Source: a virus. From it: a stretch of DNA of 34,026 nucleotides. Under the pieces are notes generated by a model that saw nothing but the letters and a program-made list of their open reading frames with translations, did no database searches and had not been told where the DNA came from. The stretch's first letter is position 1. Every line of letters begins with the position of its first letter. The DNA is taken from IMG/VR virus record IMGVR_UViG_3300014050_000079, positions 1-34,026 of that record; one strand, given 5' to 3'. Below are positions 55 to 18,633 of this stretch, piece by piece. The translations under genes were made by a program, and so were the position numbers.

Positions 55-380
55 AGTTGTCTGAGATATTGTTTGAGGAGATTTTGTATCACGTTACGTC
101 GAAGCGTCGTTTGCGGAGTATATTGCGGAATGGATTAAAGGTTCAAGCTCCTAAAGACATGGAAGATGTAGCTGGTGTATATTTGTTTGGCAGCAAAGAT
201 GATGCCGAGGAAGCTGTGATGAACTGGTTGGGAGATAGATTTGATGAAGACGAAGAGTTAGTTTTGATAAAGGTTGACGGCGATAAAGTTGTTGATCGTT
301 CTTCTTCGGCTGCTGGATATGAAGTGATATCAACTAAAGATATACCCAAGGAAGGTATTATTGGTTATGAAACTATCTGA
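51..380 (+). CDS. Tagged ADP-ribosyltransferase-like protein, putative injected effector
   Basis: A 109-residue protein starting MKLSEILFE, the tag shared by many proteins here. The in-frame codon at 36 is less likely as start, because the ATG at 51 overlaps the preceding stop (ATGA) and puts the tag at the N-terminus. After the tag come YHVTSKRRLRSILRNGLK, an acidic middle, and a C-terminal part with GYEVISTKDIPKEGI. The order 'YHxTs...IL..GL' then 'yEV...IP..I' is typical of small proteins with the ADP-ribosyltransferase / RNA 2'-phosphotransferase fold. I infer a packaged enzyme analogous to T4 Alt, probably cut after LFE by the prohead protease. Family membership is tentative; no full catalytic triad can be assigned by eye. 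There is no clear ribosome binding site. Confidence 0.6.
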   Translation: MKLSEILFEEILYHVTSKRRLRSILRNGLKVQAPKDMEDVAGVYLFGSKDDAEEAVMNWLGDRFDEDEELVLIKVDGDKVVDRSSSAAGYEVISTKDIPKEGIIGYETI

Positions 381-888
381 GATATTGTTTGAGAGTGATG
401 TATACCGTTTAGACTCTGACAAGATCAAGAGTTTTGGCAGTTCATTAAGAACATACCATCACTCTCCAGATTGGATGGAATCTGGTTTAGCTGGAGAACA
501 CGAAGAAGTTCCAGAAGGAATGATGAAAAGCAAAGTATTGTTTGCTGTTGGAGACAAGAGAGATGTTGTTCCATATATGGCACCAAGGGATGCAAGTCGT
601 TTATGGACTGATGACAACATTATATACTTCAACAAATCAGATGAACGTGCGATAAGAAATCATAAAGCATGGTTAAGCACATTTGATGGAACTGATTTTA
701 GATATTTGGAAGACAGCAACGAATATGCTAGTTCGAATCCCAAAGAACCGATAAAGCAAGATCAAATAACGGATGCTGTTGGATTTATGGAGCAGAATGG
801 ATATAAGGTTGAGTTTGTTGATGATGTTGCTGAGAAAGCAAAAGAGTTTGATGAAACTGGTGTAGAGTACAACGCTGAAGGGTTATAA
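367..888 (+). CDS. Tagged protein of unknown function, putative injected effector
   Basis: A 173-residue protein starting MKLSEILFES. The ATG at 367 lies inside the previous gene (14-base overlap); a TTG at 361 is possible but would put two residues before the tag. The first 27 bases are nearly the same as those of the gene at 51, which suggests duplication of the tag-coding segment. The body is hydrophilic. A segment KVLFAVGDKRDVVPYMAPRD recalls the NAD-binding part of some ADP-ribosyltransferase-like toxins, but I cannot confirm this. It ends in a convergent 6-base overlap with the gene on the minus strand. Packaging in the head is inferred from the tag alone. Confidence 0.6.
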   Translation: MKLSEILFESDVYRLDSDKIKSFGSSLRTYHHSPDWMESGLAGEHEEVPEGMMKSKVLFAVGDKRDVVPYMAPRDASRLWTDDNIIYFNKSDERAIRNHKAWLSTFDGTDFRYLEDSNEYASSNPKEPIKQDQITDAVGFMEQNGYKVEFVDDVAEKAKEFDETGVEYNAEGL

Positions 889-3601: not shown

Positions 3602-3708
3602 TGGCTCGACAGGAACGATTCGAACGTTCAAGTAACATTACCGTTTTCACAGTTTTGTTAAACACCTACAAGACAGGTAGGCCGCTTTTCCAGTTTGCGT
3701 ACCGCCGA
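3602..3708 (-). tRNA. tRNA-like gene with GTC anticodon and very long variable arm
   Basis: Read on the minus strand, the 5' strand TCGGCGG pairs with CTGTCGA (two G-U pairs). The T-arm is GAACG-TTCGAAT-CGTTC, the D-stem has three base pairs (CGC/GCG), and the anticodon arm is CCTAC-CTGTCTT-GTAGG, giving anticodon GTC. The discriminator is G and CCA is encoded. The variable region is about 35 bases and folds as a hairpin (TAACA...TGTTA enclosing ACTG...CGGT). At 107 bases it is longer than normal class II tRNAs. A GTC anticodon means Asp, but Asp tRNAs have short variable arms; a long arm plus G73 is more like Ser tRNA. Base 37 is T, which is unusual. It starts seven bases after the tmRNA, so the two are probably co-transcribed. 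Confidence 0.65.
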
Positions 3709-3715
3709 AGATGAG

Positions 3716-4071
3716 TGGACCTAGAGAGAATCGAACTCTCGTCCAGAAAAGTGTCAAATCAGATATACTACACGGCATAGTTTGTTATAAGTAACCTTTA
3801 TCAAATCAACAAACAACTTCAATCAAGGTGTTCGCTTGTGTCTTAAACTAACTTCTAAACGAATCAAGGAAGTTAGCAGCAATCTGATTGTTGACAAACT
3901 TACAACGTACAGATGGAACCTTGTAAGCCCGTCTAGGTCACTGAATCAAGCAGCGAGAGCTAGAGGTTGTGCATTGTCGTTGGCACTTAACGTTTATATG
4001 TTTTAAAGCAGCCATAGTCTGCTACCGTGCAATCTAACAATCTCCTTCCCTGTCGAAACCTTTATAGGCCC
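3716..4071 (-). ncRNA. ssrA: tmRNA (transfer-messenger RNA)
   Basis: The 5' end GGGCCTATAAAGGTTTCGAC has the tmRNA signature and pairs with the 3' end TAGGTCC (seven pairs, one G-U). The T-arm is GAGAG-TTCGATT-CTCTC, the discriminator is A, and CCA is not encoded. The tag reading frame lies at 3984-3946 and reads ANDNAQPLALAA then TGA, starting with resume codon GCC. The ANDN start and ALAA end match bacterial SsrA tags that direct proteins to ClpXP and similar proteases. tmRNA with SmpB rescues stalled ribosomes. The 356-base length is normal. A phage copy could keep ribosomes recycling when host RNA is degraded, or could change the degradation tag. Confidence 0.95.
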
Positions 4072-4089
4072 GTTGTGTATACTACTATA

Positions 4090-4132
4090 GTAGCGTACAA
4101 CATATTTTGTTTAAAGATAATGTATGCGCTAC
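4090..4132. promoter_or_regulatory. Imperfect inverted repeat between tmRNA and exonuclease genes
   Basis: GTAGCGTACAACAT (4090-4103) and ATGTATGCGCTAC (4120-4132) can pair over most of their length, leaving a 16-base AT-rich loop. The repeat lies in the 74-base gap between the tmRNA 5' end and the ATG at 4146. The sequence CTATAGTA occurs on both sides (4085-4092 and close to it at 4137-4144). This gap must hold the promoters for both directions; I cannot pick -35 and -10 boxes with confidence. Confidence 0.3.
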
Positions 4133-4145
4133 ATAACTATAGTAT

Positions 4146-5075
4146 ATGACAAGCATCAAACATCTTAAAGCCATAATTAAAGCAATTATATTAGAAGGTA
4201 AACTAGAAAAACAAACATATACAATTGAACAACTAGTTGAATGGTTGGGCAGTCATGTGCTTATATTTTTTGATACCGAAACAACTGGTATGAGTTCAAA
4301 GAATCCTTATTCTTTAATCACAGAAATCGCTGCTGTTGCCGTTGATATGAACACAGGAGAAAACCTTGGTGTGTATTCAATGAAAAGCAAACTCACTCCA
4401 GCCGTTGAAAAACAAATAGCTAAAGAGCGTGAAAAGATTGCTGCTGGAACCTTTGTGTCAAAAGCTCCACATTTGTCTATTGACGATGTGTTAAAAATGA
4501 CGGCTTATGAAGGTGGTGACGTTCCTATTGAAGAAGAAGGAAAACTCTTGCAAGGATTTAAAGAGTTTATCTCTCAATTTGAGTCTCGTAATCCTGTGTT
4601 GGTGGCTCATAACGCAAAATTCGATATGCGCCAAATAAACGATGCTTTAAAGCTACGTCATCGTATGGACTTTATACCAAAGTATCCAGTTGTTGATACA
4701 GTAACATTAACAACAAAATACTTGCAACCTTTGTTGGCTGGCTTAGAAGATATGAGAGCAACCAATCCAGATATCGACAACTTGTTAATCAAGCTTCGTG
4801 ATGAACATGGTCGTTGGGTTAGTAGGCTTGGACATTTAGGAACAGCGTTTGATGTGTCAACAAAACATTGGCATAGTGCTGTTGCTGATGCAGAACAACT
4901 TGGCGGCATCACATCTTCTATTGTGAAGTTCTTTAAAACTTATGGTGGAGAAAAGCTACAACTTGGCAGAGACATTATGACCGGAAAAGCCAAACGTCTG
5001 CCAAGCGGTGAAATAGCTTATAAGAAAACAAGACAACGCAAAGGGGCTGTGAAGCCTGCTGTTAATCAACCTTAG
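4146..5075 (+). CDS. dnaQ-like: DnaQ-like DEDDh 3'-5' exonuclease (probable polymerase proofreader)
   Basis: A 309-residue exonuclease with all DEDDh residues visible: D43 and E45 in FFDTETTG, D160 in AHNAKFD, H243 and D248 in HSAVADAE. The family removes nucleotides from DNA 3' ends; in bacteria it is the epsilon subunit of DNA polymerase III. Here it faces the polymerase alpha gene and their ends overlap by four bases, so proofreading for the phage polymerase is the best guess. A long insert (about residues 75-135) separates Exo I from Exo II, and the C-terminus is basic (KKTRQRKG). The N-terminal 20 residues form an amphipathic helix ending in IILE-G, which resembles a weak prohead-protease site, so packaging cannot be excluded. 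No Shine-Dalgarno site is visible. Confidence 0.9.
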   Translation: MTSIKHLKAIIKAIILEGKLEKQTYTIEQLVEWLGSHVLIFFDTETTGMSSKNPYSLITEIAAVAVDMNTGENLGVYSMKSKLTPAVEKQIAKEREKIAAGTFVSKAPHLSIDDVLKMTAYEGGDVPIEEEGKLLQGFKEFISQFESRNPVLVAHNAKFDMRQINDALKLRHRMDFIPKYPVVDTVTLTTKYLQPLLAGLEDMRATNPDIDNLLIKLRDEHGRWVSRLGHLGTAFDVSTKHWHSAVADAEQLGGITSSIVKFFKTYGGEKLQLGRDIMTGKAKRLPSGEIAYKKTRQRKGAVKPAVNQP

Positions 5076-7309
5076 CTGATCTTGTAAATCTTGTTTTGAT
5101 AAGCTGAAAATCCAAAATCGCTTTTATCAAACAATCCAACAATCACATCGTTTTGAACAAGGTTTACGTCACCCTTCCAACCCCAGATAAAACAAGTGAC
5201 TTCTTTGTTAGCTTCGGCAAACAAACGAAGCTTGAGATAAGTCTTGCCTGTCTTGGTTTTAGCTAGACCAGCAGAAGCTACAATAGCCCAGTAGTTGCCC
5301 TTCTCGCTCCAGTTGTCGATAGATTCAAAGCCAAGCTCATCAAGCTTTTCTCTAGAATCCTTTGACAGAAGTAGATCGAAATCTACAGAACCAGCTAGCT
5401 CTTTTGTAAACTCAAGCTTTTCTGCCTTGGTCCAATCTTCCATATCTTGAACTTCTGCAATAGCAGCTTCAAGCTCTGCTGTGATATCATTGTTCTTCTT
5501 GCGTGAAGTAATACGTTTAAACAAATCGTTTTTCTCTACAAGCACAGCATACACTTGCTTATAGTTCTTAAACAGTTTGCCTTCACCAACAATATCCATT
5601 GAGCCAAGTGCTTCAAGCTTGACAAGAGTTGATAGAGCACTCTTGTTGAACTTGCTGTGACGCCATGAACCATTTGGATTAATCAACAAATCCTTGACTG
5701 AGTTATATGGACGAAACTGTTGAATCTCAGAAACAGCAGTTTTACCAACGTGTTGCAGTGAGCTAAAGCTTGGCACAAGAGTTTTCTTGAAAGAAGGGTG
5801 AGAGATAATCTCATATTCAGACACATTAATGTCTGGCTTTGTTAGCTCATATCCAAGAGCTTTTGCTTCTTTAATTGCAATAGCCTTTGGGTCTTCTTTG
5901 CCTGTTACCTTGCCCTTGGAGATTGCACAATAATCGATATATGTTGCAACCCATTCATCTGGATAATACGTTAGGAACCAAGCACATTGCCATGTAGTGA
6001 TCGCATAACAAACAGCGTGAGACTTGTTGAATGAATAAGCAACAAGCTTTTCCATTTCGTCAAAGATATTGCCGCAATCTTCTGCATCGATATTGTTAGC
6101 TTTAGCGCAAGCTTCAATAAAGCTTTGACGTAGCTTGTTACGTTCTGCTTGTGCCTTTTCCTTGTTGCTAATATCCTTCTTGGTAAACGCTTTACGAATA
6201 CCATCTGTGTCTTCTAGAGGAACACCAGCAAGCTTGTGATAAATCATTTGAAGCTGTTCTTGGAACACAAGAAGTCCAGAAGTTTCAGCAAACACTTCTT
6301 TGAGAAGAGGGTGCTTGTATACAACAGATTCTGGATTTGCTCGGTTGTTCAAAAACCGTTGATCGACCTTAAGGGATAGAGGACCGGGACGGAAGATAGA
6401 CGTTGCAATTGCAATATCGGTTACAGACTTTGGCTTCATCTGACGCATGAAGTTTTGTGTCTTATCGTTGATGAATTGAAAGATACCTGTGTAGTTTCCA
6501 TTCCAAAATACGTTCTCGAAAACTTTTGGATCGGTCATTGGGTTGTTATCTGGATGCAGGTTATCCCAAAACCATTGCTTGATTTGCTTGAATGATGGAT
6601 TCTTGGTGCCTTGCTTTTGCAAGATACGTCGCACACATTGTTCGAACATACGAAGTGTACCAAGTCCAAGAATATCGAACTTGAGAAGACCAAACTCTTC
6701 AAGATGACGAAAGTTTACACCTTCCGGCCAAGGTGTTTGTAGCTCTCCACCAGCTTTGATAAGAGGCATACCTTCACGACTATTTTCGGTAATAATCACT
6801 CCTCCAGCGTGCCGTGAAAGGCCACGCATTTGCTTGAATAGCACTTTAATAGTGGTTTGGAATTCTGGATAAGTTTCCATGAGTTCTTGAAAGGTAGGAG
6901 AATCCTCCAATGCAGCTTCAAAGGTAAGAACCCATGTACCACGATCAAAGCCTTCTACTTGCTTGGCAACATCAAGCACTTCTTTCTCAATCTTACCTGT
7001 CGCAGCGTTAATCTCTTCAAATGGAAGGTTGTGTAGACGAGCAACATCTTTGATAAGAGAACGAAGTTGGAGTTGTGCAAAGTTAGTTACAGGAATAACG
7101 TTTTCTGAACCAAAGAACTCAATAAGAAGCTTTACGGCACGATCACGGTCAGAAAAATCCGAATCGATGTCGGGAAATGAGTTATGTGTAAGGAAAAAGT
7201 TTCCGTTTGGTTTATCGCTTACAAAAAACGTGTGATCGCCTTCAACTCCAATATCAACCAGATTGATTGGAGTTGCTAGGTTTACTTTGTTGATTTGTTT
7301 GATCTTCAT
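5072..7309 (-). CDS. dnaE-like: DNA polymerase III alpha subunit, C-terminal part, with C-terminal half of a split intein
   Basis: From ATG 7309 the first 43 residues are a C-intein: [16 protein letters not shown] and FFLTHN, with the splice junction THN/S. A TTG at 7318 with AAAAGGA before it would add three residues. The extein then begins SFPDIDSDF, the polymerase active-site motif (two catalytic aspartates in PDID), with the third aspartate in KFDILGLGTL. Downstream lie the fingers (WPEGVNFRH, AYSFNKSHAVCYA), a helix-hairpin-helix region and a C-terminal OB-like domain (WAIVASAGLAKTKTGKTYLKLRLF). After trans-splicing to the product of 8176-10029, the joined sequence ...[16 protein letters not shown] matches the continuous DnaE family. 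Its start overlaps the homing endonuclease gene by 56 bases in another frame. This is the phage's replicative polymerase. Confidence 0.93.
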   Translation of the reverse strand: MKIKQINKVNLATPINLVDIGVEGDHTFFVSDKPNGNFFLTHNSFPDIDSDFSDRDRAVKLLIEFFGSENVIPVTNFAQLQLRSLIKDVARLHNLPFEEINAATGKIEKEVLDVAKQVEGFDRGTWVLTFEAALEDSPTFQELMETYPEFQTTIKVLFKQMRGLSRHAGGVIITENSREGMPLIKAGGELQTPWPEGVNFRHLEEFGLLKFDILGLGTLRMFEQCVRRILQKQGTKNPSFKQIKQWFWDNLHPDNNPMTDPKVFENVFWNGNYTGIFQFINDKTQNFMRQMKPKSVTDIAIATSIFRPGPLSLKVDQRFLNNRANPESVVYKHPLLKEVFAETSGLLVFQEQLQMIYHKLAGVPLEDTDGIRKAFTKKDISNKEKAQAERNKLRQSFIEACAKANNIDAEDCGNIFDEMEKLVAYSFNKSHAVCYAITTWQCAWFLTYYPDEWVATYIDYCAISKGKVTGKEDPKAIAIKEAKALGYELTKPDINVSEYEIISHPSFKKTLVPSFSSLQHVGKTAVSEIQQFRPYNSVKDLLINPNGSWRHSKFNKSALSTLVKLEALGSMDIVGEGKLFKNYKQVYAVLVEKNDLFKRITSRKKNNDITAELEAAIAEVQDMEDWTKAEKLEFTKELAGSVDFDLLLSKDSREKLDELGFESIDNWSEKGNYWAIVASAGLAKTKTGKTYLKLRLFAEANKEVTCFIWGWKGDVNLVQNDVIVGLFDKSDFGFSAYQNKIYKIS

Positions 7310-8216
7310 ATGTGACAACCAATCCTTTTGTTTTTTTATAGTTTCTTTGTTCTAGGTTGGGAATAGTTGACCATAGATTAGCAGCTTTTATTCCAGCTAT
7401 AAACTCTTTTTGTGTTATTGTTATTATTTTGCTGGCTTGTTCTAGTACCGATTGGTGCTTTAAAAGATTCTTTGTCATCATTTTTTCGAATGGTTTTCCA
7501 TTATCCTCTACACCTTTGAGTTCAACAAATAAGTTTAGTTCTGGCAAGAAGAAGTCGGGAGTATATGCCCCTATAGCTGTTAGGAACGTTTTACCTTCAT
7601 AAATGTATTGAATCCCAAAATATTCAAGGAACCTTGCATAATCTGCCTCTAGAGCACTTTTGAAATAATCTTTCATTCCTAAATCAATGCGATAACCTGT
7701 TCTGCCATTTAGGTGTATTTTGATTTTACCGTTCGACTGATCAACGAACTGACATTGACGACTGCAACGTTGAATATGATTATCAGATTTTTTTATTTCA
7801 AACTGTTTTTTACAGGTAATGCAAGTTTTTACTTCTCTTCCGGCTTTATGGAAGCATTCTCTAGAGCAGAAATACACATTCAAATCACTTGGCTTGCCTT
7901 CAAAAATACTGTTACAGTATTCACACTTTCTTTCAACGTGTGCTACTTTTTTACTTTCATTTTGACATTTTCTAGAACAGTAAGAGCGTTTCTGTGAAGG
8001 ATAGCTAAGAAAAGTTTTGTCACATATTTTGCAAATACGATTTACTTTTCCTTCTTCTTTATTCCTACCAAACTGATTTTTGCATTTGTCATTGCAAAAA
8101 ACTCGTCTAAGTGAGTTTGAGCTACCACTCCCATTTTTTTCTGGAATTATTAGCTCAAACTCATTTCCACAGTTTTTACAGCATTTTAATAAACTCGTCG
8201 GTTTCTCTGATTTCAT
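7254..8216 (-). CDS. Free-standing PD-(D/E)xK homing endonuclease between the intein halves
   Basis: A 320-residue protein with four CxxC...CxxxC zinc modules (C13/C16/C41/C45, C62/C65/C80/C84, C98/C101/C117/C121, C132/C135/C151/C155), then a nuclease domain with E190, D221 (YTPDF) and E232-L-K234 (VELKG), the PD-(D/E)xK pattern. It overlaps the N-intein gene by 41 bases and the C-intein gene by about 56-65 bases in different frames, so it sits exactly where an intein endonuclease domain would be. The arrangement matches the 'fractured gene' class known from phage metagenomes (split intein plus separate endonuclease). It probably cuts polymerase genes that lack the insertion. The gene at 10026 encodes a related nuclease domain. 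Confidence 0.88.
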
Positions 8217-10029
8217 CGGCCCTAACCTCTATTTCTTTTCCTTCACGAATAACAATCCAAAGATGGTTGGGGCTGCTTGTAAGAATAGTACCGTCTTCTA
8301 GTTCAAATTCTACAATTGTTTTATGCAGTGTTTCTTCTTTGCTTACAACTGGTTTCCATGCTTTTGTATGTGTATACACCATATCCCCAACTTCCAAATC
8401 TTTTAACATTTTTACATCTTTAAGTGTTACTAGACGATGATCATGTGCCAATACATAAGTAGTGGGGAGCAAACACTTTTTAGACTTAACCAAGAAACGT
8501 TCGAATAGCAAGCCAAAACGAATAGGATCAACCTGTGTAATGTTCAAAACATATGATAGCAGCGAACCAGCAGCAGAGCCACGGCCATTACCGATAAGCA
8601 TTTCCTTTCCAGCAATATCCATAATCTTGTGATATGTGAGAAAGTATTTTGCAAAGCGAAGATGCTTGATGGTTTCAAGCTCATACTTCAATCGCTTGAT
8701 ATAAACATCATCATGATTGCGTCCAACGTTACGCAAACCATTAATAGCAAGTTGAACCAATTGCTTGAACGCTACATCATCTTCAGACATATCGTTAGAA
8801 GCCTCTAGAAGCTTTTCTAGGACGTTCTTTTCAATTAGACGACCGATACCGGGAAGCTTAACAGAACGGTCAACAGAAACGTCACCAATAAGGTTATGAG
8901 CAATATCGTGTGTGCGTTCGATTGCATCACAGATAAGTTGATCGTCAGTATAAAGATCTGGATATGCTGCCTTTTGTTCAAGGTAGGTATTCCAAAGCTG
9001 ATCGGCATTCTTTGGATATAGCTCGCACTTAAGTTCTTCAACGGTTTGAGGAAGAGTGTTTGGATCAATTGTTCCCTTGGTTTTTGATGCCCAAGCCATA
9101 GCCTTGTAGACTTCACGTTCCTTCCAATGATTAGGGTTGGAGTAGTGAGAGTCTACGGTAACAACAAGCTTTAGACCTGTTTCCTTGGCAAGCTCCATGA
9201 GATAGAAGTTGACAAGATGTTGTGCTGACAGCTTGTTCATCTGGAGTTCAAGATAATAGTTTTCTGGCCCACCTAGAGCATCAACAAAACGCTCGGTGAT
9301 ACCCTTTAGTTCGGTCATGATTTTGTTGTAGTTATGACGGTTAACTCCCCAATCCTTCCAATCAAGCGATTGATCTTGATTGTCGAAGATTGTACGAGCA
9401 AGACGGCCACCGATGCAAGCAGAGCTAGCAATGATGTTACCTTTCGCATGACGCTTAAGGGTATTCATATCAATACGAGGATAACGATAAAAGCCGTCGA
9501 TATAGCTTTCTGAAACCATTTGGAAAAGGCTTTTGAGTCCAGCATTGTTCTTGGGCAGAAGAACAATATGGTTACGTTGAGCGATTGGATCAGAGAACTT
9601 GTTGCTCTTTGATTCTGCTTCAATTTCTACAACAGTGCCACCTTCTTCATCTTCCGATGAATCCTTGCCATGTTTGGCATCCATTTCTGCTTCTGTTTCA
9701 GCCATTTCATTTCCAATGCTAATAGCCTTCGCAAGAGCCTTGTTAGCTTTTTGAATTTGAACAAGCTTTGACCATTCAGACAATGAATCAATGAAGTAAG
9801 CTTCAACACCGGGAATAACCTTGAACTTAACTCCCTTGTCTTTGAGCTTCTTTGCATGAATTTGTTGGTGAGATACTCCAGCCATACTACCGTGATCGGT
9901 TAGAGCAAGAGCGTCCATATTGTTAGAAACAGCATAATCGATATGCTCTTGTGGAAGTCCAATCGCATCTCCAATGCTCAGTGTTGAATGTGCGTGCAAG
10001 CCTACGAAACGATTAGGTTTTTTGTTCAT
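8176..10029 (-). CDS. dnaE-like: DNA polymerase III alpha subunit, N-terminal part, with N-terminal half of a split intein
   Basis: About 617 residues. It opens with a PHP domain ([32 protein letters not shown]) and continues through [16 protein letters not shown] and [10 protein letters not shown], all standard for DnaE. The extein ends at KSKK. The last 99 residues are an N-intein starting with Cys (CLLPTTYVL), with [10 protein letters not shown] and [12 protein letters not shown] as blocks A/B, then a stop. There is no endonuclease domain. An acidic low-complexity insert ([10 protein letters not shown]) lies at about residues 125-145. I prefer ATG 10029, which forms an ATGA overlap with the endonuclease gene upstream; ATG 10038 is the alternative. 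The product must trans-splice with that of 5072-7309 to give a full polymerase, because the catalytic aspartates are on the other half. Confidence 0.93.
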
Positions 10030-10853
10030 GTTTCCCATTTTTCAAGTTTGAACTGATAGAGTTTTTTGAGCTCATTATAAGCTTTACGATCTACAACTAC
10101 AATCTTAGCATCTGGATATTCTTTTCTAAAGAGATCCAGTTTTTCTTTACCTTGTTTAGTTAACCAGCCTTTTACTTCAACTATTGTTCCATCGTCAAGA
10201 ATAAAATCTGGTGTGTAAGTTTTGTTTTCCGTTAGATTATAAGTTATGGATTCATATTTCCATTTGATGCCGACATGGTTTAGATAACGGGCATAGTTTG
10301 CTTCCCAAGTCGAACGAAAAAAACTGTCAAGATCTTCTCTAAATCCTTTCTTAGATCTAGAATGTATTGATTGACTTTTCATTGCAGCTTGCGATAAAGC
10401 TCTGATTCTTTCGGGGGAAACATACTTTCCAGAATGGATACTTGATATTTTTTCTTTACCTTCTTTAGATTGGGACCAATGTTCAACACCAATCTTTTCT
10501 AGTGATGTTTTTCTGGATTTTTCTAGAACCGCAGCTTTACCATCACCAGACCCATATCTTTCTTGATATGTTTTTACTCTTCGACGTAGAATCTCTTGTT
10601 TATCAGAAGATTCGTTAATTGCTTTTAGTGCAGCCTCTATTGTAACAGAATGTTTACCGCTGGCATATGCCGCTTTTAGCGATTCTGATATTTTCGCTTT
10701 TTGCTCTTCAGTTTGGGTATATGTGCCATTTTCTTTGCGTTTTGCAACAGAAAGTTTTTTGGCACATTCTTTACTGCAAGTTTTTCCAACTTTACGTTTT
10801 GTTGTGTCGATATATTCTTTTTGACACACACAGCATTCTTTTTGCATACTCAT
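10026..10853 (-). CDS. PD-(D/E)xK homing endonuclease at the polymerase 5' end
   Basis: A 275-residue protein with one zinc module (C7/C8/C10 and C26/C30), then helical repeats like nuclease-associated modular (NUMOD) DNA-binding motifs ([20 protein letters not shown] and [15 protein letters not shown]). The nuclease domain has E184 in [12 protein letters not shown]216 in YTPDF and E226-V-K228 in VEVKG. This domain aligns by eye with that of the endonuclease at 7254 ([18 protein letters not shown]), so they are paralogues with different DNA-binding parts. It overlaps the polymerase gene downstream (ATGA) and the polymerase fragment upstream (ATGA at 10853-10850). It probably homes into the start of the polymerase gene. 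Confidence 0.85.
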
Positions 10854-17268: not shown

Positions 17269-18633
17269 ATGCAAAACAAACAAACGCAAACTGTTGAAGT
17301 TACTGTTTCATGGGGAACTTCTTTACTACAAGTTTTCCATATCGACAACAATCAATCTTTTGTTCTTTCAAGCGAAAAGATAAAAAACAACAATCACTTT
17401 GTTGTTGGTACAGATATTCTCGGTGAGTTAAATCAAGTTCCAATTGTTATCAATTCACAAGACGAAGTTAAATTCCTAACGTTAAACAACTCAACAATAG
17501 AAATAAATGGTGTTGAAACCAACACACAAGAAGCTTTAATCGATGATTCCTCTTGTTACAAAATGAACGTTAAAGGAATAACCATCACAGCAAAAAAAGT
17601 TGTGAAAGACAAGAAACTACCTTTTGCACTAAAACTCGATAAACCGTTTTTGGTTTCTAGCATTGCTTCTGCTTTTGCTGGAATCTTTATCATGCTATCC
17701 ATGCATTTCCTTGTTCCAGCAAACAATGATCTTTTGCAACAAGTAAATGAAGAAGAAAGATTAAATGACTTACGTGCGTTTATTCAACGTCAACAAGAAC
17801 GTCAAATAGAACAACCGCAACAAGAAACCACCACCAGCCAACAAGGAGCAGCAAGTCAAAGACATTCTGGCCCAGATGGACAAATGGGTAACCGTCAATC
17901 TCCTGCTAGGAATGCTCGTCACGCTATTCGCAACAATGGAGAACCACCGCATATGTCTCGTCAAGCTGCTCGTGATATGGTAGCAAGCAGAGGTATATTT
18001 GTTGCCCTTGGTTCAAGGGGAGCATTAGCTGGCGGCAACGCAGGCATTATTTCTCCATTTGGAGGATTAACTGAATCTGGCTTGGAAAGCCAAAATGCAA
18101 ACGGTAACATTAACGGCGATGTTATTGGTGATTCTTTTGGTTATAACGGATTAGGTAATTCTGGTACAGGATGGGGTGCAAATGGCAACGGCGAAGGAGT
18201 TATTGGACTCGGTAACTTAAACACCAACGGTGTTGGAGGTTCCGGTAATCACGGTTATGGTACTGATAGGGGGTCACGACTTGGCAATCGTGGCACAAGG
18301 GGTCCAATTGTTCGTCCAGCCGCTCCAAGCGTAATCGGATTACTGTCTCCAGAATCCATCCGAAGAGTTGTTATTCGCAACCTACCACAAGTCATTCACT
18401 GCCATGAGCAAGGATTAGTGCAAAATCCTGCATTGGAAGGAAGAGTTGTTGTACGGTTTATTATAGGAAGTGAAGGTATAGTAATGGGTGCAAACGTTAC
18501 CGAAAGTAACATTTCAGTACCTTCTGTTGGTCAATGTATTTCGAACGCTGTTCGTCGCTGGCAGTTTCCAACACCCGAAGGTGGTGGAATTGTAACAGTA
18601 AACTATCCGTTTAATCTACAACGTCCAGAATAA
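17269..18633 (+). CDS. AgmX/PglI-type TonB-like membrane protein
   Basis: A 454-residue protein with ribosome binding site AGGAAG. Residues 1-115 are a strand-rich cytoplasmic domain like the N-terminus of myxobacterial AgmX-type proteins (VEVTVSWGTSLLQVFHI). One membrane segment lies at about 127-149. Residues 155-240 are Gln/Arg-rich, 240-340 Gly/Asn-rich, and the last 100 residues match the AgmX/PglI C-terminal domain: LSPESIRRVVIRNLPQVIHCHEQ, EGRVVVRFIIG, then VRRWQFPTPEGGGIV. The two conserved cysteines (IHCHEQ, GQCI) are present. In bacteria such proteins are envelope parts of gliding motility and related machines. On a phage this gene is unusual: it may be host-derived, acting in the envelope during infection. 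It points to a Myxococcota-like host. Confidence 0.85.
   Translation: MQNKQTQTVEVTVSWGTSLLQVFHIDNNQSFVLSSEKIKNNNHFVVGTDILGELNQVPIVINSQDEVKFLTLNNSTIEINGVETNTQEALIDDSSCYKMNVKGITITAKKVVKDKKLPFALKLDKPFLVSSIASAFAGIFIMLSMHFLVPANNDLLQQVNEEERLNDLRAFIQRQQERQIEQPQQETTTSQQGAASQRHSGPDGQMGNRQSPARNARHAIRNNGEPPHMSRQAARDMVASRGIFVALGSRGALAGGNAGIISPFGGLTESGLESQNANGNINGDVIGDSFGYNGLGNSGTGWGANGNGEGVIGLGNLNTNGVGGSGNHGYGTDRGSRLGNRGTRGPIVRPAAPSVIGLLSPESIRRVVIRNLPQVIHCHEQGLVQNPALEGRVVVRFIIGSEGIVMGANVTESNISVPSVGQCISNAVRRWQFPTPEGGGIVTVNYPFNLQRPE

Follow-up and report, generated by a model that had tools for sequence, protein, structure and literature searches.

The 34,026-nucleotide stretch analysed here (the window), which comes from a virus record as a fragment of 34 kb, carries on its minus strand a complete one-piece tmRNA (ssrA) gene. 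Its product most likely works in the trans-translation of the host and rescues stalled ribosomes during lytic growth. The original prediction had described the gene as phage-encoded and apparently functional, and both points are supported by the gene calls, by the phage contigs that carry it and by the covariation of its helices.

The window contains a full-length tmRNA gene

ARAGORN located the tmRNA at 3715–4071 on the minus strand of the window, with the tag ANDNAQPLALAA. The Rfam model RF00023 matched the same strand at 3713–4071 with 116 bits (E 6.8e-45; curated cut-off 47 bits) and over its whole length (1–374); the covariance model, which had been named as a check of the prediction, hence accepts the gene. 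The permuted tmRNA model gave a score under its cut-off and weaker than that of the one-piece model. The coordinates proposed originally, 3716–4071, correspond to the mature RNA as far as discriminator A73; the strand, which is minus, had been left unstated.

The acceptor stem is of the alanine type. Its 3' strand TAGGTCC with the discriminator A (3716–3723, minus) pairs with GGGCCTA at 4071–4065 and contains G3-U70, the pair read by alanyl-tRNA synthetase; the same stem is found in two related phage tmRNAs, L083 and L086. A73 at 3716 is followed by CTC, not CCA. The CCA end is not encoded, and the host must therefore trim the 3' end and add it. The T arm (GAGAG-TTCGATT-CTCTC) is intact, and the fold is more stable than those of shuffled sequences (MFE z -3.5). 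As had been claimed, both ends of the gene, its T arm and the reading frame of the tag are intact. Directly upstream lies a weak sigma70-like promoter candidate (4084–4113, minus; TAAACA, 18 nt, TATAGT); the tmRNA region holds three such matches, compared to 1.7 expected by chance.

The tmRNA is followed on its 3' side, after a few bases, by a cloverleaf that resembles tRNA-Asp(GUC) (3602–3708, minus), has an encoded CCA and contains a variable region of 35 nt. It has the acceptor stem TCGGCGG/CTGTCGA with discriminator G, the anticodon loop CTGTCTT (GUC) and the T arm GAACG-TTCGAAT-CGTTC. G73 in combination with a GUC anticodon fits tRNA-Asp identity; U37 and the long variable region, which contains a hairpin, are odd traits. 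The cloverleaf at 3602–3708 was called by neither ARAGORN nor Rfam. A custom cloverleaf scan matched it alone in the window and gave no hit over 12 Mb of random sequence from a Markov model, a comparison somewhat favourable to this sequence because the limits of the scan were set after it had been seen. It is the MFE fold, its folding energy taken alone (z -1.35) is not exceptional, and it is missing beside the tmRNAs of L083 and L086. This tRNA-like neighbour is an unusual trait of the locus.

The tmRNA is an accessory gene of a large phage

The tmRNA gene sits in a phage genome and not in host DNA. The window encodes a T4-type large terminase, DNA polymerase III alpha (DnaE), a sigma factor and an RNA ligase, and five tRNAs were called by ARAGORN. 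Relatives of the terminase (74–94% identity) are found on contigs of up to 260 kb, and the window therefore belongs to a large phage. No named phage comes close: terminase identity reaches 40% at best.

Of 22 records related by terminase or by tag, four contain an RF00023 match above the cut-off. These are L084, a near-identical copy of the window tmRNA; L083, on a 66-kb contig; L086, on a 260-kb contig (1501–1849, minus); and the distant phage L085, for which ARAGORN gave the tag GETFAKLQAVGLLRTEEVAVA. Contig 3300012000_000179 has the same flanking proteins and the same tmRNA (100%).

On three distinct phage contigs (window, L083 and L086) the tmRNA is close to DnaE. Its neighbour in the window is a DnaQ-like 3'-5' exonuclease (4146–5075, plus); in the 260-kb relative, too, the tmRNA has a homologue of this exonuclease (64% identical) in its vicinity. 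The C-terminal part of the polymerase (5072–7318, minus) is a flank shared by all three tmRNA-bearing contigs. With the other ORF (8176–10038, minus), DnaE spans 5072–10038. The ends at the junction of the two ORFs resemble intein halves by appearance; endonuclease-like ORFs are located at 7254–8216 and 10026–10853, the latter matching Phage_endo_I, and DnaE is uninterrupted in L122.

In the window and in L083, the tmRNA lies inside the interval between DnaE and the homologue of window 361–888; in the L086 contig it lies a few kb beyond DnaE. L121, whose DnaE is 93% identical to that of the window, has no tmRNA in the same interval or elsewhere in 123 kb, which makes the tmRNA an accessory gene. 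It is present or absent among close relatives and not essential in this phage group.

Two further features of these genomes were observed. In the 66-kb contig, an S-adenosylmethionine decarboxylase gene (L083 1861–2289, minus) adjoins the tmRNA. Moreover, at least eight otherwise different ORFs, among them a NUDIX hydrolase, have MKLxxILFE-like N-termini (window 51, 367, 1518-, 1548, 2735-, 11013, 23714- and 33038; also in L121, L122 and L123). We take the [IL]-x-E end of these N-termini to resemble the T4 capsid-targeting sequence that is cut by the prohead protease, and the ORFs may encode proteins packaged into the capsid.

The ORF at 17269–18633 (plus) bears on the host. It matches the C-terminal domain of Myxococcota AgmX/PglI (NF033768, 93 bits, cut-off 40) and, under the equivalog cut-off, the C-terminal part of the gliding-motility protein GltG. 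Of three Myxococcota or delta MAGs, two contain a homologue with 53% identity and one a weaker homologue; two alphaproteobacteria contained none. The GltG-like phage gene is seemingly of host origin. A Myxococcota host is likely, albeit not proven, because this gene carries a Myxococcota-type domain and has homologues in the MAGs.

Helices covary among three phage tmRNAs

At aligned positions, the window tmRNA is 84.8% identical to that of L083 and 71.2% identical to that of L086, so that the three tmRNAs differ by 15–29%. Each of the three is fully paired in the acceptor stem, in helix 5 and in the stem beneath the tRNA-like domain, and the same applies to the two stems each of PK1, PK2 and PK4 and to stem 1 of PK3; stem 2 of PK3 was identified by eye, in the window only, and the T stems were taken directly from the sequences. 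The pairs of PK1 stem 1 are replaced (AGCAG/CTGCT, AGCGG/CCGCT, AGTGTA/TACACT), and PK2 stem 2 covaries (ATCTG/CAGAT versus GTCTG/CAGAC). Between the window (TCTAG/CTAGA) and L086 (CTGTT/AACAG), both strands of helix 5 are exchanged together; this helix overlaps the tag codons. Helices that covary in this way across three phage tmRNAs are the pattern expected of a functional RNA.

L086 has kept the acceptor stem and the pseudoknots, but its T loop is aberrant (GGCGGAA, not of the TTCGAAT type), and it contains the D-loop-like segment CAGATTCGAC with AGGTTTCGAC as counterpart. These two changes are probably the reason why ARAGORN misses this tmRNA. Judging from such a T loop, it may be that not every tmRNA copy in the family need be active.

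The phage tag contains an unusual Gln-Pro

The tag reading frame (3946–3984, minus; coding part 88–126 of the tmRNA gene according to ARAGORN) reads GCC AAC GAC AAT GCA CAA CCT CTA GCT CTC GCT GCT TGA. It thus has a resume Ala codon, a hydrophobic Ala-Ala end and a stop. The tag of L083 is identical, with three codons differing synonymously, and that of L086 is ANDNAQPVLSLAA; ANDNAQP is common to the three.

The middle of the tag had been regarded as unusual, and the comparison with bacterial tags agrees. The pattern ANDNAxxxALAA, which is able to match the exact tag, was run against the genomes of about 85,000 species of bacteria and archaea and did not return ANDNAQPLALAA. Three of its five matches are tmRNAs of Myxococcota or delta (ANDNAVSYALAA); the other two are stretches from alphaproteobacteria that are not tmRNA calls. 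The comparison set for Myxococcota consisted of 109 ARAGORN tmRNA calls in fetched loci, a few of which look misread; neither the exact tag nor QP occurred in any of the 109. In this set, 20 tags start with ANDNA and 19 with ANDNV, several share ANDN...ALAA with the phage tag, and the nearest are ANDDAQLALAA and ANDNALALAA. The tags called in Myxococcota differ widely from species to species. The tmRNA region had no nucleotide match in INPHARED, and tblastn with the tag, a 12-residue query too short to be informative, gave none either. Viral matches to the ANDNAQP pattern in L113, L114 and L116 are not tmRNA and were read as ordinary coding sequence.

The Gln-Pro of this phage lineage is an unusual trait of the tag; any effect it might have on tagged proteins is hypothetical. 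The suggestion that the tag could identify the host holds at the level of the phylum and as a consistency check only: both tag ends fit Myxococcota, the phylum to which the GltG-like gene points as well, and no exact host follows from them.

A separate observation concerns open frames of Labrys and Ciceribacter (L109 7470–7658; L110 6008–6046), which end in the ssrA-like tails ANDNAQPQALAA and ANDNATPDALAA. These are perhaps built-in degrons on small proteins.

Proposed function and alternative explanations

A check for a phage SmpB had accompanied the original prediction. None was found in 13 related phage records, which include the 260-kb contig and one of 241 kb and may be incomplete; the control search was positive in 10 of 10 bacterial genomes. 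The phage tmRNA presumably uses the SmpB of the host. The gene, its folds, the tag frame, their conservation and the lack of SmpB in the examined phage contigs are findings at the level of sequence, and they are consistent with the following course of events. The tmRNA would be transcribed during infection, trimmed and provided with CCA by host enzymes, and charged with alanine by the host alanyl-tRNA synthetase via the G3-U70 acceptor stem. Host SmpB would bring it into ribosomes stalled on broken mRNA. Translation would resume at GCC and append (A)ANDNAQPLALAA, which yields the predicted tag peptide AANDNAQPLALAA, and the LAA end would direct the tagged product to ClpXP-type proteases of the host. 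The likely benefit would be a supply of tmRNA at a time when truncated phage messages abound and host transcription fails.

Alternatively, the phage tmRNA could re-route the tagged proteins, if Gln-Pro weakened or altered recognition by a host adaptor or protease and their fate differed from that conferred by the host tag. The shared ANDNAQP of the phage tmRNAs, its missing QP counterpart in the Myxococcota calls and the outcome of the genome scan would agree with this. We nevertheless consider it unlikely: ClpX and adaptors are known to read the C-terminal LAA and the N-terminal ANDN, both of which the phage tag retains; Myxococcota species differ widely in their tags anyway; and QP may come from an unsampled host or be constrained by helix 5. 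It is similarly improbable that the lineage keeps ANDNAQP...LAA as a proteolysis tag of its own under selection, with tagged proteins being degraded differently than host-tagged ones. Host ssrA is a common integration site, fragments of which remain in prophages (PMC9004378), and the gene might be an inert passenger or a leftover of integration or transduction at this site. However, the gene is complete and not a 3' fragment, diverged contigs have retained it while acquiring compensatory and synonymous changes, and the window ORFs that were scanned include no recognised integrase; this very improbable explanation was rejected for these reasons. The missing phage SmpB and the aberrant T loop of L086 would also suit a decoy role, in which the RNA titrates SmpB and thereby blocks trans-translation in the host; this has been proposed for the tmRNA of mycobacteriophage DS6A, which has the tRNA-like domain only (PMC4131195). 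Such a role is very improbable here, since the phage tmRNAs have conserved their mRNA-like domain, their pseudoknot stems and the tag frame, none of which a decoy needs.

Comparison with known tmRNAs

Phage tmRNAs are already known, and the gene in the window is a further, slightly unusual example. To call them rare is true only in part: 402 of the 18,146 phage genomes in a published survey (2.3%; PMC9004378) carried a tmRNA, and both tmRNA and SmpB have been described in huge phages (PMC7162821). The tmRNAs of mycobacteriophages Bxz1 and Wildcat and of Bacillus phage G have been listed (PMC4131195), and in Wildcat the tmRNA is the most expressed lytic gene (PMC7474061).

With bacterial ssrA (RF00023) the window gene shares the full-length match, the tRNA-like domain with G3-U70, helix 5, the pseudoknot stems and ANDN...ALAA; it differs in that it is phage-encoded, lacks an encoded CCA and contains a Gln-Pro that is not present in the Myxococcota tmRNAs compared. 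The tmRNAs of Bxz1, Wildcat and phage G (PMC4131195) are also carried by tailed phages, but hosts and phages are different. The huge phages with tmRNA and SmpB (PMC7162821) resemble it as large metagenomic phages with tRNA genes, whereas no SmpB was found in the relatives of the window. Phage Melnitz likewise carries an ssrA for which a help to translation is assumed (PMC9004378); its two-piece tmRNA is permuted and riboswitch-controlled, in contrast to the one-piece tmRNA of the window.

The gene adds a tmRNA lineage in uncultivated large phages that probably infect Myxococcota. Its presence or absence in close relatives, together with a tag conserved among the phages, provides a natural comparison for why phages carry tmRNA.
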